Position numbers and translations under genes: made by a program. A DNA stretch of 51,634 bases. Origin: a virus. The DNA is taken from the IMG/VR virus record IMGVR_UViG_3300005466_000012, positions 1-51,634 of that record. One strand, written 5' to 3'. Each line of letters begins with the position of its first letter. The first letter of the stretch is position 1. A model generated the notes under the pieces. That model did not search any database and was not told the origin of the DNA. It worked only from the letters and a program-made list of their open reading frames with translations. Below, one piece after another: positions 2,337 to 22,229 of this stretch.

Positions 2337-3218
2337 TTAATTATACACTATCTTTCCGAACCGATCAACTTCTGTAATGAAACTTCCATCAGCTCTTTGA
2401 GGACGTCGGACTACCTTCGTTAGGTATCTTGGTCCGTCGGAGTAGAGGAAGCATCGAACGTGTGGCTTACATGCAAACTTGTACGCATTGTAGCTTGCGA
2501 CAGTGCCCAGTTTATAGTTTCCACTGGTACCGTCGGGTACTTCTTCACAAGTGCACTTTGGAGCTCGATCAAGAGCGACGATACTTCGGTAATTTCGGAT
2601 GCGTTCTCTAATGCTTTCTTCGCGACAATGATGCTCATATAATGCTAAGTGTCCTAGTTCTTGGTTGATGGCTAAAAGATAGCCCACAGTTTTGTTAGTA
2701 ACGAGAGGATCGTCCTGGGAACCAACGAGATAACCGTCAAGCTGGTCAAGGTAGCCGAAGCTGTCACGTGTTCGAAGAGTCCCATCTTTAAATTTCTGAA
2801 AGCTACGACTGTTAGCAGATTTGACATCGACAACGCAACCATCGATGACGCAATCACGGTGGCCAACGACTCCATCGACAACGAGTTCATCCTGCTCTCC
2901 TACCACTTCGTGACCAGCCGCCTTGGCCATCGAGATCACATACGCTTCAAGGATGTGTCCGTATGTGAACTTGATTTGGGTGTAGGGCTGGACGGGTTGA
3001 CGTAAGCTTGGTGAATGAATGGAGTGCCACAGTTGAGACGGGCACTTGATTCCCATCTCAGATAGACGGAGAGTAGGAACTTTGTCCGGTCGTCCAACTG
3101 CTTCCAGGATTTTTCGTCCAACTTCTCCGCTAAAGTCTTCAGCGATAGCTTTGGTGAACCATCCGTTGTTTCCAACTTCGGCATAAATATCCTTAATTAA
3201 GTTCTTAATGTCTTTCAT
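2337..3218 (-). CDS. PD-(D/E)XK superfamily nuclease (RecB/Cas4-like), 293 aa
   Basis: The core is VVGHRDCVIDGCVVDVKSAN. The GHxD..ID..x..DxKS pattern supplies the metal-binding Asp, the second Asp and the Lys of PD-(D/E)XK nucleases. It is followed by F.Y..QLDGYL, the helix with Gln/Tyr common in RecB-like exonucleases. Cysteines in the C-terminal third (C-T-C and two later C) could bind metal. I chose ATG 3218 (MKDIKNLIKDIY); an upstream extension would run through the membrane-protein gene. It probably acts as a 5'-3' exonuclease in recombination or host DNA degradation, in the position of T7 gp6. Family assignment is from motifs; role is inferred. Confidence 0.75.
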   Translation of the reverse strand: MKDIKNLIKDIYAEVGNNGWFTKAIAEDFSGEVGRKILEAVGRPDKVPTLRLSEMGIKCPSQLWHSIHSPSLRQPVQPYTQIKFTYGHILEAYVISMAKAAGHEVVGEQDELVVDGVVGHRDCVIDGCVVDVKSANSRSFQKFKDGTLRTRDSFGYLDQLDGYLVGSQDDPLVTNKTVGYLLAINQELGHLALYEHHCREESIRERIRNYRSIVALDRAPKCTCEEVPDGTSGNYKLGTVASYNAYKFACKPHVRCFLYSDGPRYLTKVVRRPQRADGSFITEVDRFGKIVYN

Positions 3219-3241
3219 GTTTACTCTAGGCTTGGGGCCTG

Positions 3242-3598
3242 TTACAGCCCCATAGCGCGGGCCGCTGTCTTTACGAACAGAATGATGAGAAGGGAATATC
3301 CCATCATAGCGACTGGGACGGCAGCTGTCAAGATGGTCATCTTCTTGATAAAGGAGTAGCTTTCCCACCCCTTCTTCTCTTCCTTCTTGTCCTCTTTCTT
3401 GTACATCTTTGCTCGCTGTTCAATGTACGTCTTGATGGCATCTGCCTTTCGTTCTGCAGCATCAAGTTTCATGAACAACACTTCTTCTGGAAGGTCCTCA
3501 AACTTCATGGTCGGATCCTTCTTCTTTCGGCGCTTGGGTTTCGGTTTGTCGAAAGCCCTAGCATATTCGAGCACAGCAATCAGGTCTTTGCCTTTCAT
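3242..3598 (-). CDS. Membrane protein with charged N-terminal domain, 118 aa
   Basis: A highly charged, lysine-rich region covers about residues 18-85, including a helical stretch near 40-70. One hydrophobic segment follows near 90-112 (TILTAAVPVAMMGYSLLIILFV). I chose ATG 3598, since GGAGAG lies 6 bases upstream; an earlier in-frame ATG at 3610 contains that ribosome site. It is the first gene after the giant RNA region. Likely a single-pass inner-membrane protein; role unknown. Confidence 0.7.
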   Translation of the reverse strand: MKGKDLIAVLEYARAFDKPKPKRRKKKDPTMKFEDLPEEVLFMKLDAAERKADAIKTYIEQRAKMYKKEDKKEEKKGWESYSFIKKMTILTAAVPVAMMGYSLLIILFVKTAARAMGL

Positions 3599-3613
3599 GG
3601 TACTCTCCATATG

Positions 3614-3657
3614 GCCCGGTAAACCCGGGCTCTTGATTAAGGAGGACGTGCCTCCTT
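3614..3657 (-). other. Tandem hairpins at the 3' end of the giant RNA
   Basis: Minus strand: AAGGAGG-CACGT-CCTCCTT (7 bp, 3639-3657), eight bases, then GCCCGG-GTTTA-CCGGGC (6 bp, 3614-3630). They may end or process the RNA. The first stem hides a perfect ribosome-site sequence. No T-run follows, so simple intrinsic termination is not certain. Confidence 0.55.
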
Positions 3658-4338
3658 GTTTGACGAGCGCTCCTTGCGCCCGCTTCTTGAAACTCTCATC
3701 TCTCTCTCCGCTCTTAACCTTGACGCTAATCTGGCGCCTTCTTGGTCCTCACCATCGATGTTCTACCAACTTGCGGACTGTCCCGGCCATGTACCTGACC
3801 TCACACCAGTACGACTTACGGTCTGCCACACAACTTACTCGCAGTCCTTTGGGTTGTGTGTCGTAGAACTCTAACTGCTTTGCTTAGACGGTGTGCTGTT
3901 GGAATACCCTGACTGTTCTTCACCCTACACCCGGTAGGCGAGTGCTACATCAGGTCGCTACTCCCTTCTTCGCTACCCCGTTCGATCGGGGACTTCTCTC
4001 CCGCTGCCGATACGACAATCGGTGGGACGCACTCTTGGCCTTCCGGCTCTTCACACATATGGCCTGTCTCCTACAGGGCGAGAGACATTGGCACCATTCT
4101 TACCATTCAGTTTGCAAAGCTGAACGCCTCCGGCTTAACCTTCGGATGGCTGTGTCATACAAGAATGCTGGGGTTCGTGCTCCAGAGATACAGGGCATAT
4201 ACATCCACTTCAGAGGTGGACTTTACTGACAGTACCAATCAGTCCCTGGGCATGGTTGAGGGCCATGCTTACGGCTAGCACTAGCTTTTCTGAGGTCAAA
4301 GCTGTAATCCCTACTAGATCGGTTTACTTTCCGGTGAT

Positions 4339-4356
4339 GTGGTATATCGAAACCAC
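4339..4356 (-). other. tRNA T-arm-like hairpin in the giant RNA
   Basis: On the minus strand, GTGGT-TTCGATAT-ACCAC: a 5-bp stem with an 8-base loop containing TTCGA as in tRNA T-loops. TGGTAGAG, similar to a D-arm, lies about 60 bases upstream. A full cloverleaf could not be drawn by eye. Confidence 0.45.
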
Positions 4357-4435
4357 GCAGTTCATGCCCTTCAAGCATTCTGCCACGCCATAGCTACTGT
4401 CCTCTACCATTGCAGTGCCCCTGAACCCGCTCTCA

Positions 4436-4450
4436 GTGGACTCGAACCAC
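4436..4450 (-). other. Canonical T-arm-like hairpin in the giant RNA
   Basis: On the minus strand, GTGG-TTCGAGT-CCAC: a 4-bp stem extendable by G.U, with a 7-base loop TTCGAGT that matches the tRNA T-loop consensus. The flanks do not pair as a 7-bp acceptor stem, so this is more likely a T-loop module than an intact tRNA. Confidence 0.5.
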
Positions 4451-5009
4451 CCGGGGAGTATCTGCGCCTTACCGCATCTTCTGCTTAGTCGTCCGTAGCC
4501 ATTTGGGCCCATCAACAGAGGGGTGACTGAGTTACACAGCCATCTACTATAGACGACAGGACTAGCTTCGTGTCACGTCAAGAGTTTGCTATGGAGTACC
4601 CAGCGGTTGTTCTGGGTCCACGCTAGTAACCGTGTCTCTACCTACAAGCTTCCGAAGAAGTCAGCGCGCTAGCGGGGTTCTGTCCCGTTGTCACACATCA
4701 CCATGTGCGCCACGCCTCGTAGGGCATTTGGTTTGTCAGCGTTAATGGACGCTGTATGTATCGGACCTTCTGTCAACCACCGTAGTAGTAGCCGGATTTG
4801 CACCGGTCTCTATACATCCACCTTGCTATCGGCTGGACTTTACGAGTGTCCCTAATCGGATACACTTGGTTCTGCCTACGCAGTTGCACTCACTATGTCG
4901 CTTGTGGAAGGCGACTTGCCCACAACCTGAACAGTGGCTCCCCTCGGGGAGGGCCGGTTAGGTACCTCAGTACCTGAGGTTTTCCGCTAGTAAGTGGAAA
5001 ATGAATTGA

Positions 5010-5519
5010 TTAGAAAAGAGGAGGCTGAGCACGGAGACCCTCAACCTCCTTCTTCTCGTCGTCTGAATAATCTTTGTCAGGATTGAATGGAACTAGGTTA
5101 TCGACACGGATACCAACCAAACGTGCTGCGATAGCCTTACCTCCTGTTGGAGTTCCGTGCTCATAAACCTCCAGCTTGAGTGTGCCGTCTGAGCCGTTAC
5201 CAATTGTCCTTCCGTCCATAGGTGCACCGTCAGCGTCGACGACCTTCGGAGGTTCAAAGGTCCACATAGTTCCGTCCTTACGGAGACGCTTAGTAGGACA
5301 GCCGAAACGGGTGACCCATGCGTTTCCTTCATTCTCATCCATCTTGAGAACATTCTTCAATCCTTTACCCTGAAGCTCACGGATCTTCTCCAGACCTTCA
5401 GCGGTTGGGTGGATGGTTACGCTCCATCGGTCGTACAGGGAGTCAGGCTTTACAACCTTCACCCAAGACAACTTACCTTGAACGTACTCAGTCCACGTCT
5501 TATTAAATGATTTCGCCAT
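5010..5519 (-). CDS. Probable single-stranded DNA-binding protein, 169 aa
   Basis: Compact mixed protein lying between DNA polymerase and the recombination nucleases, the position of T7 gp2.5-like SSBs. Its C-terminus is acidic (NPDKDYSDDEKKEVEG) and ends AQPPLF. A terminal aromatic residue after an acidic stretch is the partner-recruiting tail of gp2.5 and bacterial SSBs. WSVTIHPTAEGLEKIREL and KLEVYEHGTPTGGKAIAARLVGIRVDNLV resemble the strand pattern of phage OB-fold SSBs. The start overlaps the upstream 44-aa gene (TAATG). I infer SSB from tail and context; no active-site motif exists to confirm it. Confidence 0.6.
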   Translation of the reverse strand: MAKSFNKTWTEYVQGKLSWVKVVKPDSLYDRWSVTIHPTAEGLEKIRELQGKGLKNVLKMDENEGNAWVTRFGCPTKRLRKDGTMWTFEPPKVVDADGAPMDGRTIGNGSDGTLKLEVYEHGTPTGGKAIAARLVGIRVDNLVPFNPDKDYSDDEKKEVEGLRAQPPLF

Positions 5520-8885: not shown

Positions 8886-9881
8886 TTAGTGGAAGCGGCC
8901 CTTTTTCTTCTGGTCCAGCTTCTTCACGTTGTTGACAGCCTTGGCATCAGTGCCACAGTGCTTGACGATACGCTCCTTCAGCTCAGCATCGCAACCTTTC
9001 CAGATCAGACGCTGCTCGACAATCTCCTGAGGCCAACCGATGGCGAGAAGCTTCGCACCGTAGATAGTAGCCCGAGGGCTGATCACCATACGTGCACGCT
9101 CCTTCGCAGCAGCAACACGCAGTTCCTGCACACGGTCTGCCCAGTTCTTATTCCCCGACAGAAGAACTTCCAGAGGAAGATCATAGTCGAAGTCGAAGAA
9201 CACGAAGCGGTCGAGGGTCGAAGCATCCAGCTGGTTAGCACCAACGTACACACGGTCTGCACCGGTACCGAAGGTGTTGGCAGCAATGACGATCCGGAAG
9301 TTCTCATGACGCTGGACGGGAGCATCCTGATCAGGGAACATTGCATGGCCATTAGCCAGTGCAGTGTTGATCCATTTCAGTGCCGATGCATCCGACGTAT
9401 CCACCTCGTCGATGAGGATGACACCACCCTTCTCGAAGGCGGTGCGGAAGGAAGTACCATGGTAGCGACCATGAGCATCCATGTATCCTGCAAGCTCGTG
9501 CGTACCAGACACACTATTCTGAAGATAGTACGGGAGGTTCAGTGCCGTAGCAATCTGCTGAACAACCGTCGACTTACCAGAACCAGCCGGTCCGACGAGA
9601 GACACAGGGATGTTGCAGTTCACCGCCTCAAGGATTTCCTTGAAGAGATAGTGGCGAGGCTCTCCCTCGAGAATGACGATGTCGTCACCCTTCTTGAGTT
9701 CGATCTTGCCATGCTGGTGGTAGTTCATCAGCTCCTCTTCGATCAGGGATTTGATCTCAGGGAGGGATGCGGTATTGAGGGACTTACGCAGAAACTTCAG
9801 CTGATCCGTATCCATCGGCTCGACGTGGATAGGGGCGGCTGCATCCTGAACAGGACTCTTCAGTTCTTCGAGGCCAAACAT
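8886..9881 (-). CDS. cobS: CobS-like AAA+ ATPase, 331 aa
   Basis: Walker A GPAGSGKST (97-105), Walker B ILIDEVD (155-161), sensor-1 region RIVIAANTFGTGAD and an LDASTLDRF arginine-finger region are all intact. This is the MoxR/CobS branch of AAA+ proteins. Cellular CobS is a cobaltochelatase subunit in aerobic B12 synthesis. Phages carry CobS-like genes without the remaining pathway, so remodelling of a host or phage complex is equally possible. AAGGAG lies 6 bases before the ATG. Translation with the 326-aa partner downstream suggests a working pair. Confidence 0.8.
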   Translation of the reverse strand: MFGLEELKSPVQDAAAPIHVEPMDTDQLKFLRKSLNTASLPEIKSLIEEELMNYHQHGKIELKKGDDIVILEGEPRHYLFKEILEAVNCNIPVSLVGPAGSGKSTVVQQIATALNLPYYLQNSVSGTHELAGYMDAHGRYHGTSFRTAFEKGGVILIDEVDTSDASALKWINTALANGHAMFPDQDAPVQRHENFRIVIAANTFGTGADRVYVGANQLDASTLDRFVFFDFDYDLPLEVLLSGNKNWADRVQELRVAAAKERARMVISPRATIYGAKLLAIGWPQEIVEQRLIWKGCDAELKERIVKHCGTDAKAVNNVKKLDQKKKGRFH

Positions 9882-17360: not shown

Positions 17361-17550
17361 CGTCTACATCCTTGCCGAGGAAACTGTCGTAATCATCGAC
17401 GAACATGATGGTCTTGCCATCATGAAGCATCGTAAGGTTGAGGTAGGTTAGTCCCTCGTCTGCACTCAGACGAAGAACCTTCCGTTTCAGCAAGTTTGGA
17501 GTGTCTTTTTCCACCTGCTTTAGAAAGCCTAATAGTGTCTCCCAATCCAT
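17341..17550 (-). CDS. Hypothetical protein, 69 aa
   Basis: Begins MDWETLLGFLKQVEKDTPNL. Helical first part, then beta-like segments (TYLNLTMLHDGKTIMFVDDYDSFLG). A purine-rich ribosome site (GGGAGAAGAGAG) precedes the ATG. It is the first gene after the promoter-like element at 17585-17613. No known family. Confidence 0.65.
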   Translation of the reverse strand: MDWETLLGFLKQVEKDTPNLLKRKVLRLSADEGLTYLNLTMLHDGKTIMFVDDYDSFLGKDVDDAGGVG

Positions 17551-17584
17551 CTCTCTTCTCCCTTGGCATGATTGCCATTCTTAG

Positions 17585-17613
17585 ATTGTAAACCTAACTA
17601 AAGACTAAGTCAA
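17585..17613 (-). promoter_or_regulatory. Sigma70-like leftward promoter
   Basis: Minus strand TTGACT, 17-base spacer, TACAAT: five of six matches to each consensus hexamer. It overlaps the end of the zinc-ribbon gene and would start RNA near 17578, just ahead of the 69-aa gene. Confidence 0.65.
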
Positions 17614-17777
17614 CTTGACCTAATCGGCCAATTCCTCCTATTCGACTTCCTACACTTGCCGCACGACCAAATCCAACGGTGAGGTGGCACGTGCTGCAGG
17701 CGACACAGCTTCTTGTTTCCGCACTTCTGACACTTAACAACAAGTGCCTTCTTACCAACCCTCAGACTAAACTTCAT
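17610..17777 (-). CDS. Small zinc-ribbon protein, 55 aa
   Basis: Begins MKFSLRVGKKALVVKCQKCG. Two CxxC pairs, CQKCG at 16-20 and CGKC at 39-42, about 20 residues apart, form a zinc ribbon, with basic residues after the second pair. AGGGAGGT lies a few bases before the ATG. Likely binds nucleic acid or a host transcription or replication protein. A copy of the AAACCTATCACG motif lies 24 bases upstream of the start. Confidence 0.7.
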   Translation of the reverse strand: MKFSLRVGKKALVVKCQKCGNKKLCRLQHVPPHRWIWSCGKCRKSNRRNWPIRSS

Positions 17778-17800
17778 TTCTACCTCCCTTGCGCGGCCAA

Positions 17801-17812
17801 AAACCTATCACG
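17801..17812 (+). repeat. AAACCTATCACG repeat
   Basis: Exact 12-mer between the NYN gene stop and the zinc-ribbon gene start. In the direction of transcription it reads CGTGATAGGTTT and lies 24 bases before the start codon, a position suited to an operator or RNA-level signal. Confidence 0.6.
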
Positions 17813-17816
17813 ATCG

Positions 17817-21303: not shown

Positions 21304-21374
21304 TGTCTCTCTCCATTGCGTAGCCATAGCGTGGCACAATGCCCGCTTTGATGGCAACTGCGTTTGACGGAAAT

Positions 21375-21384
21375 CCCACGTGGG
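21375..21384. other. 10-base palindrome in leader of the 367-aa gene
   Basis: CCCACGTGGG, a perfect palindrome in the 147-base gap between the 44-aa and 367-aa genes. No further gene is seen in that gap. Confidence 0.35.
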
Positions 21385-21425
21385 CGGCTATCCGCACCTA
21401 GGGGCCGTCTTGACGACGCACCTTC

Positions 21426-21454
21426 AAGGTAAGGGCTGACCTAGCCTAAGTCAA
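21426..21454 (-). promoter_or_regulatory. Weak promoter-like element
   Basis: Minus strand TTGACT, 17 bases, TACCTT. The -10 match is poor, but the left part (TTGACTTAGGCT) resembles the better promoter at 17585-17613 (TTGACTTAGTCT). It would transcribe the 367-aa gene with a leader of about 115 bases. Confidence 0.35.
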
Positions 21455-21585
21455 CCCAGCCAAATCACAGAAGCGTGATATTTGGTAACGAAAGCGTGAG
21501 CAGCAGCCTCATTTGGAACACAACTAGTAGTGATGGCTATTGTGTGACCATTAGGTAATACATGCTGTCTCATTACGGTTTCCAT
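21451..21585 (-). CDS. Small hypothetical protein, 44 aa
   Basis: Begins METVMRQHVLPNGHTIAITT. Beta-rich first half, then NEAAAHAFVTKYHASVIWLG. GGAAGGGAA precedes the ATG at 21585. It lies between the palindrome-rich region and the 367-aa gene. No family recognised. Confidence 0.6.
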   Translation of the reverse strand: METVMRQHVLPNGHTIAITTSCVPNEAAAHAFVTKYHASVIWLG

Positions 21586-21604
21586 TGTGTTCCCTTCCAA
21601 TGCG

Positions 21605-21700
21605 TTAGCGTATTGCTAATACGTAATGCCAGCATGCTACCATAAGGTATACCTTACACTGTTAGAGTCTTATACAGTATACCAGATGGCTGGCATGCCA
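21605..21700. promoter_or_regulatory. Palindrome-rich control element
   Basis: Contains TTAGC-GTATT-GCTAA (21605-21619), an 8-bp inverted repeat ATGCCAGC / GCTGGCAT (21626 and 21689), the perfect 14-base palindrome TAAGGTATACCTTA (21643-21656) and TGGCATGCCA (21691-21700). A minus-strand extended -10 (TGGTATACT) lies among them. Probable operator/promoter or origin for the genes to the left. Confidence 0.5.
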
Positions 21701-21710
21701 GAACCGATGT

Positions 21711-21726
21711 GGGGGGTCGGGGGGTC
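21711..21726 (+). repeat. Tandem GGGGGGTC repeat
   Basis: Two perfect adjacent copies of GGGGGGTC, marking the border between the AT-rich tiny-gene cluster and the palindrome-rich element. Could be a protein-binding or cleavage site; nothing decides. Confidence 0.5.
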
Positions 21727-21741
21727 AAGCGCGCCAATGAA

Positions 21742-21897
21742 TTACACCTCAAATTTATCTCGGAAAAATTTTATATCGTACAATTGGGTAGTTTGGTTAA
21801 ATTCTACAGCTTCTATTACATCTCCTGCCTTTAAAGGAACTTGAGTATAGATCGGATCTGTAGAATTATATTTATAAAATTGAACACTAAACATCAT
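21742..21897 (-). CDS. Small hypothetical protein, 51 aa
   Basis: Begins MMFSVQFYKYNSTDPIYTQV. Beta-rich, with a VPLKAGDVIEAVEFNQ segment like a small barrel. The ATG overlaps the TGA of the 33-aa gene (ATGA). It is the last gene of the coupled chain from the main leftward promoter. Function unknown. Confidence 0.6.
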   Translation of the reverse strand: MMFSVQFYKYNSTDPIYTQVPLKAGDVIEAVEFNQTTQLYDIKFFRDKFEV

Positions 21898-21995
21898 CTA
21901 AACAAATACTCCAATAAATCATAACATAAATACCAAAGACTACAGAAAAAGGAAAGTAATAATACCCAAGCTACTAACGCTTCTCCCTTAGTCAT
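21894..21995 (-). CDS. Tiny membrane protein, 33 aa
   Basis: Begins MTKGEALVAWVLLLSFFCSL; almost the whole protein is one membrane segment followed by a short YDLLEYLFR tail. The ATG overlaps the stop of the 28-aa gene and its stop overlaps the next start. The overlaps, not length, support it. Confidence 0.55.
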   Translation of the reverse strand: MTKGEALVAWVLLLSFFCSLWYLCYDLLEYLFR

Positions 21996-22078
21996 CTAGA
22001 GAAACTAGCCCATAAGAAATACAAAAGCACCAGAAACGCAATCACTGGTGCTATTATTGTCATTACATCGTCAATCAT
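21992..22078 (-). CDS. Tiny membrane protein, 28 aa
   Basis: Begins MIDDVMTIIAPVIAFLVLLY, a single membrane segment. It overlaps both neighbours by start/stop fusion. An 8-bp hairpin with a T-rich tail (22026-22052) lies inside it. Role unknown. Confidence 0.5.
   Translation of the reverse strand: MIDDVMTIIAPVIAFLVLLYFLWASFSR
22026..22052 (-). terminator. Possible intragenic attenuator
   Basis: 8-bp stem AGCACCAG / CTGGTGCT with an 11-base loop, followed on the minus strand by TTTTGTATTT. It is inside the 28-aa gene and could attenuate the early operon when that gene is not being translated. Confidence 0.4.
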
Positions 22079-22229
22079 TGTTACATATACTGCTAACTAT
22101 CTTACTAATAATCCAATAACCTGCAAGAAAGACTCCTACAGCACAAGCTACTACAAAAGTTCCAAAAGCTATGTCGTCTATTTGCTGAAAGACTTCAAAG
22201 ACATTGCTGAGGTGACTATAAATTTCCAT
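22071..22229 (-). CDS. Small membrane protein, 52 aa
   Basis: Begins MEIYSHLSNVFEVFQQIDDI, then one membrane segment (about 23-43). AGGAA lies 6 bases before the ATG at 22229. It overlaps the end of the 107-aa gene by 52 bases and the next start by a few. Predicted inner-membrane peptide of unknown role. Confidence 0.6.
   Translation of the reverse strand: MEIYSHLSNVFEVFQQIDDIAFGTFVVACAVGVFLAGYWIISKIVSSICNND

Follow-up and report, generated by a model that had tools for sequence, protein, structure and literature searches.

We identified a giant structured RNA of about 1.3 kb in the replication operon of a podovirus-like phage (minus strand, 3700–5009, the outer limits being those of a gene-free gap). 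The RNA lacks normal protein coding and, as judged from the comparison of homologous sequences, its fold has been kept while the sequence changed. The DNA that was analysed, below referred to as the window, comprises the whole of an IMG/VR virus record of 51,634 bases. Members of the RNA family occupy the corresponding position in about 65 related contigs of soil phages, in which the length varies from about 1.2 to 2.2 kb. At its 3' end it is followed by two small genes: a minigene that ends in Pro-Pro-stop and a gene for a lysine-rich protein with a membrane helix. Whether the RNA represents a new family of giant structured non-coding RNAs of a soil podovirus lineage, which forms one module with these two genes and acts by the mechanism proposed below, is in our estimate an evenly balanced question.

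Genomic setting and distribution of the RNA

The structural arm of the window is podovirus-like and lies on the plus strand (terminase, head-tail adaptor, major head and internal virion proteins), and the replication arm is found on the minus strand. The operon of the latter runs: primase-helicase, AAA ATPase, DUF7192 protein, DNA polymerase A and gp2.5-like ssDNA-binding protein (ssb; 5010–5519), followed by a gap of 1.4 kb, a small gene and a Cas4-domain exonuclease (2337–3368, with the conserved part starting near 3220). An earlier note, made on this sequence alone, had placed the element within the replication operon, and the stretch 3611–5009 indeed separates two minus-strand genes. The note's description of the left arm as otherwise gap-free was incorrect, as 1416–1992 and 17361–17816 are also devoid of ORFs of at least 75 aa. 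That the stretch holds no credible gene was true for ordinary genes, the longest operon-strand ORF being one of 63 aa with a TTG start, but overlooked a 20-codon ORF, led by a Shine-Dalgarno (SD) sequence and ending in Pro-Pro-stop, at 3699–3637. Two further observations were made on the window. An AAA+ ATPase in the replication arm (8886–9881) matches PHROG 249, a family annotated as porphyrin biosynthesis (cobaltochelatase CobS-like). Where the left arm (minus) and the right arm (plus) diverge, 820 bp (21358–22177) are free of ORFs of at least 75 aa and include a 17-nt inverted repeat at 21800/21851; this is likely a divergent control region, in which no promoter consensus was found above chance.

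A scan with the polymerase yielded 80 related viral contigs, and in nearly all of these the distance between ssb and exonuclease is 1.4–4.2 kb. In the most distant relatives (L066, L071 and L072) only 12–193 bp separate the ssb stop from the exonuclease match, and the polymerase tree puts the same three outside the gap-bearing clade. DNA and profile matches connect the gaps with one another, the family links being on the operon strand; a profile built from seven relatives (group A, window excluded) matches the window at 4060–3637 on the minus strand (E 4.7e-4). No conserved ordinary gene was found over the RNA in the gaps of the relatives, where only the terminal minigene is conserved, and a conserved long protein frame, which by the earlier note would have spoken against the RNA, is absent across the ~65 relatives. 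In L017, L022, L041, L061, L073 and L075 extra ORFs of about 170–290 aa are present between ssb and the RNA, which also in these contigs adjoins the Pro-Pro-stop ORF and the membrane-protein gene. Occurrence of the RNA outside the lineage was considered and rejected: exact-pattern scans of IMG/VR returned only contigs of this same lineage, and one stray locus (L088) sits inside a terminase gene. A DNA-level search of phage records gave no match, and a polymerase scan of bacterial genomes, directed at the host, found none.

Conserved fold, covariation and T-loops

The earlier note had pointed to a density of perfect hairpins. Six perfect hairpins indeed have a stem of 6 bp or more, where dinucleotide shuffles gave 1.4 ± 1.1, but the excess is equal on both strands and hence not strand-specific, and the folding energy of the whole 3611–5009 stretch is the same as that of shuffles (single sequence, z = 0.00). 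Hairpins and stability alone are therefore no proof and the evidence had to be comparative; as far as sequences can tell, the proof of structure comes from the comparison of relatives, not from thermodynamics. The UUCG and GGAA loops that had been noticed do read on the minus strand: a CUUC(UUCG)GAAG hairpin by direct reading (4660–4649), and GCC(GGAA)GGC (4047–4038), the latter inside the region that the group A profile recovers. Folding also gave a hairpin at the 5' end, CCUCAG-GUA-CUGAGG (minus strand, 4965–4979), and by eye a similar one, CCUCAGG...CCUGAG, was recognised near the 5' end in L014.

Within group A (seven phages) we counted 116 compensatory pairs versus 37 ± 5.6 in a null in which the substitutions were reshuffled on the inferred tree (R-scape type); the neighbouring coding DNA of this group, used as control, showed no excess (18 versus 41). 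For group A, consensus folding along most of the RNA gave z-scores from -2 to -7.5, where neighbouring coding sequence averages about -0.5, and the sense alignment folds better than the antisense (-419 versus -381). A second group gave 68 compensatory pairs versus 40 ± 7 in the null, on an alignment that is only 42–74% identical and in which sense and antisense fold about equally well. Covariation across homologues, a check that the earlier note had recommended, is present beyond the tree-based null, and together with the same-locus homologues and the strand-specific motifs it supports the note's proposal of a giant structured RNA.

The strongest covariation, in which the window itself takes part, was found for a conserved 50-nt hairpin element with a CUCAAC loop (minus strand, 4232–4281), located 0.5–0.8 kb upstream of the minigene. 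In its main helix each of the six pairs shows changes on both sides, and 37 compensatory cells were counted versus 13 ± 2.6 in shuffles, a signal that vanishes when the helix partner is slid. A covariance model made from 16 relatives (window excluded) recovers the element at 4281–4232 with 43.7 bits (E 2e-11), which is the sole match in the 51.6-kb window. An outer 3-bp helix (columns 8–10/38–40) covaries as well in the element and its homologues (L007, L021, L067, L070, L080 and others), its middle pair having switched from GC to CG; this suggests that the hairpin is bulged and has two parts. The joint alignment of 16 members supports additional helices in the window (4373/4356 and 4115/4053); the secondary structure of the window RNA is confident in parts only. 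A scan with fuzzy motifs was too loose to be of use past a few loci.

T-loops recur in the gaps in a strand-specific manner. On the operon strand 131 G-TTCRANN-C sites were found, in 85 of which all four outer pairs are formed, and the paired stems cover all Watson-Crick types; on the opposite strand none of the 17 sites is fully paired. T-loop hairpins of the kind seen in cobalamin riboswitches (UGNAANU) showed the same strand bias, with 12/33 on the operon strand versus 0/7 on the other, both being small numbers. The window contains one tRNA-type T-loop, in the T-arm hairpin GGUGG-UUCGAGU-CCACU (minus strand, 4435–4451), and at least one of the cobalamin type, CCGG-UGCAAAU-CCGG (minus strand, 4792–4806). 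In L009 the T-arm is preceded by an anticodon-arm-like hairpin, and the pair gives an Rfam half-tRNA match below the cutoff. We read the T-loops and tRNA-like parts as architectural modules, not as functional tRNAs. The T-arm motifs had suggested a tRNA array, a candidate that was dropped: in the window ARAGORN detects neither a full tRNA nor a tmRNA, and in the gaps of the relatives it calls few tRNAs, mostly intron-bearing. Two such calls, for tRNA-Leu, lie inside the gaps of L010 (9628–9760) and L049 (13635–13773) and are probably not genes for tRNAs but the tRNA-like module within the giant RNA. A boxA-like antitermination motif was not enriched.

The two small genes at the 3' border

The 3' end of the RNA is closed by the SD-led minigene MRVSRSGRKERSSNKEARPP-stop, which has 20 codons and ends in Pro-Pro-stop (minus strand, 3637–3699). 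An SD-led ORF of 7–28 codons with this ending is present in 58 of 67 gaps and in 58 of the 60 complete relatives; seven of the nine misses concern cut contigs, and the other two (L015 and L073) possess the Pro-Pro-stop codons and lack a recognised start. The antisense strand yielded such an ORF in 2/67 gaps, the next commonest terminal dipeptide occurs in 12/67, and outside the gaps 26 similar Pro-Pro-stop ORFs were found in 1.09 Mb (both strands). The sequence CCUCCUUAA near the RNA 3' end equals the anti-SD tail of 16S rRNA, and mimicry of this rRNA was considered; the in-frame codons of the relatives rule against it, since they read CCA/CCC/CCG CCU UAA in frame, so that CCUCCUUAA encodes Pro-Pro-stop. 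Each of the two Pro codons is variable in its third base, which points to selection on the peptide.

Pro-Pro at the C-terminus, directly before the stop, is a preferred site of tmRNA tagging (PMC3985003). The minigene has the hallmark of arrest-peptide leaders, a conserved C-terminal motif that is known to slow translation or termination, located upstream of a gene, and it is a probable ribosome-arrest minigene. Related arrangements are found in CruR (DUF2946), where a RAPP-type motif stalls ribosomes and shields the transcript from Rho (PMC9426467), and in CutF, which combines a proline-rich, stalling-like end with a stem-loop over the next SD (PMC9973294): in both an upstream ORF carries a C-terminal proline motif, for which stalling is established or proposed, and controls the next gene. 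The CruR and CutF ORFs differ in being much longer (145 residues in CruR) and copper-sensing, whereas the minigene has its Pro-Pro directly before the stop and comes after a giant RNA. It is set apart from the next gene by a GC-rich hairpin (minus strand, 3614–3630), and the median distance from stop to start is 69 nt. In several loci base pairing is possible between CCUCCUU and the SD of the following gene. When a stalled ribosome was modelled, the mean accessibility of this SD rose only slightly, from 0.39 to 0.47, with a clear gain in 9 loci, a minority.

The next gene encodes a lysine-rich protein of 118 aa with a C-terminal membrane helix (minus strand, 3242–3598, with an alternative upstream ATG at 3610). 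Its counterparts in the relatives are about 90–118 aa long and rich in lysine and glutamate, and 48 out of 61 contain a hydrophobic helix (Kyte-Doolittle) at a median of 12.5 residues from the C-terminus, where it should be noted that the 61 downstream ORFs were picked automatically and that some may be the wrong gene. No known family was found for this small protein. The membrane-tail proteins of L030, L031, L036, L044, L061 and L077 begin proline-rich (e.g. MYWPPPPYYG), and such starts could also slow ribosomes right after initiation.

The nearest isolates, the Zobellviridae/Cobavirinae phage CRP-5 and Roseobacter phage CRP-13 (DNA polymerase 36–38% identical), have a replication operon related to that of the window but differ at the ssb-exonuclease junction, where, as in the RNA-less relatives, the RNA, the minigene and the membrane-protein gene are all absent; in these relatives the T-loops are absent from the junction as well. 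The three components are gained or lost together, and this provides the best clue to function: they look like a three-part module. The earlier note recognised the giant RNA and missed its membership in this module.

Known RNAs, proposed mechanism and rival explanations

Among bacteria and phages, few ornate RNAs of such size have been described, and for most of these a function is still to be assigned. The covariance models of Rfam 15 gave no match in the window, including those for OLE, HEARO, group I and II introns and tmRNA, and none in 12 relatives. The models for GOLLD (RF02032; the accession given in the earlier note, RF01998, is that of a group II intron family) and ROOL (RF03087) did not match either, where the search with the ROOL model came without a positive-control signal. 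The scan that the note had proposed, with GOLLD, ROOL, OLE and HEARO among the models, returned zero matches, and the note's guess of a new class has gained support in that all Rfam models fail to match. No published description of this RNA was found in a literature that was mostly open-access and excluded bioRxiv preprints. Like GOLLD and ROOL, the window RNA is a very large ornate RNA of phages or prophages, and the tRNA-type T-arms recall the linker of GOLLD, which sometimes holds tRNAs; it differs from both in its greater length, in its site in the replication operon between ssb and exonuclease, and in its link to a minigene and a membrane protein. OLE RNA has a membrane partner, OapA, that tethers it to the membrane (PMC12286853). 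The likeness lies in the combination of a large structured RNA with a membrane protein, the small membrane-protein gene here being encoded beside the RNA and travelling with it; OLE is bacterial and only about 0.6 kb, whereas the window RNA matches no Rfam family and its partnership with the protein is putative. We know of no Pro-Pro-stop minigene for OLE. A giant ornate phage RNA is thus of a known kind; as far as tested, what is new is the family, the T-loops that it contains and its coupling to a Pro-Pro-stop minigene and a membrane-protein gene.

We propose the following mechanism for the module. The RNA would be co-transcribed in the replication operon, and the operon transcript would fold into an RNA built around repeated T-loop hairpins. 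A ribosome that finishes the Pro-Pro-stop ORF would pause at the 3' border of the RNA, where it may block Rho or exonucleases, or release the RNA by triggering a cut at the stop codon; the paused ribosome may also open translation of the next gene and so set the expression of the membrane protein. This lysine-rich membrane-tail protein would bind the RNA and anchor it at the membrane during infection, in the way of OLE and OapA. The most far-reaching form of this proposal, a membrane-anchored giant RNA-protein machine of phages whose 3' end is made by a programmed stall plus cleavage at the Pro-Pro-stop minigene, is one that we put forward with considerable reserve and think rather unlikely.

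The main rival of the module is a purely cis-acting leader. In that case the RNA would have no separate life and would be an untranslated, very long part of the mRNA with a control function, its fold and the minigene acting solely on the membrane-protein and exonuclease genes downstream, in the manner of the CutF and CruR leaders. The RNA, the minigene and the next gene form one uninterrupted stretch, the short stop-to-start interval with its GC hairpin and CCUCCUU-SD pairing would suit a leader, promoter- or terminator-like sites between ssb and the RNA are not above chance, and stalling leaders are known (PMC9973294, PMC9426467). A conserved complex structure of 1.2–2.2 kb far exceeds the known leaders of such kind, however, and the 50-nt hairpin element lies at a distance of 0.5–0.8 kb from the minigene; we consider a leader rather doubtful. 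The second rival is a trans-acting RNA that folds and self-assembles, e.g. into a cage, without the downstream protein, as has been found for GOLLD and ROOL, which form RNA-only cages (PMC12286853). Size, phage location, the complex covarying fold and the many T-loops, suited to tertiary contacts, would all agree with such a particle. It is nevertheless unlikely in our view: the linkage to the minigene and the membrane-protein gene is left unexplained, neither sequence nor covariance searches match it to ROOL or GOLLD, and the window RNA is not beside a tRNA array.

A tRNA mimic or decoy, in which anticodon-arm-like and T-arm modules serve as bait for tRNA enzymes of the host, for ribosome factors or for anticodon nucleases, could be argued from the recurrence of T-arms and from the half-tRNA match in L009 (anticodon arm plus T arm, below the Rfam cutoff). 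This match has no D arm, however, a full tRNA fold is absent from the window, an acceptor/CCA end was not seen there by eye, and T-loops are common architectural modules of large RNAs, all of which makes a decoy improbable. Decayed genes or chance, i.e. a degenerate protein or tRNA cluster that forms hairpins by accident, would explain the ordinary single-sequence stability, but this reading is already contradicted by the covariation beyond the tree-based null, the strand-specific T-loops, the leave-one-out covariance match and an absence of frames that is conserved across the ~65 relatives, and we give it next to no credence.

The RNA, which in our preferred reading belongs to the module, adds a further family to the known giant RNAs; it exceeds GOLLD, ROOL and OLE in length, has no entry in Rfam and is widely distributed among soil phages. 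The tie between the RNA and two small genes makes the function of a giant phage RNA testable, by deletion of one part at a time, with the probable arrest minigene and the small membrane protein as direct handles. If the proposal is true, a 3' end made by stalling and cleavage would be a way of making a giant RNA that has not been described before.
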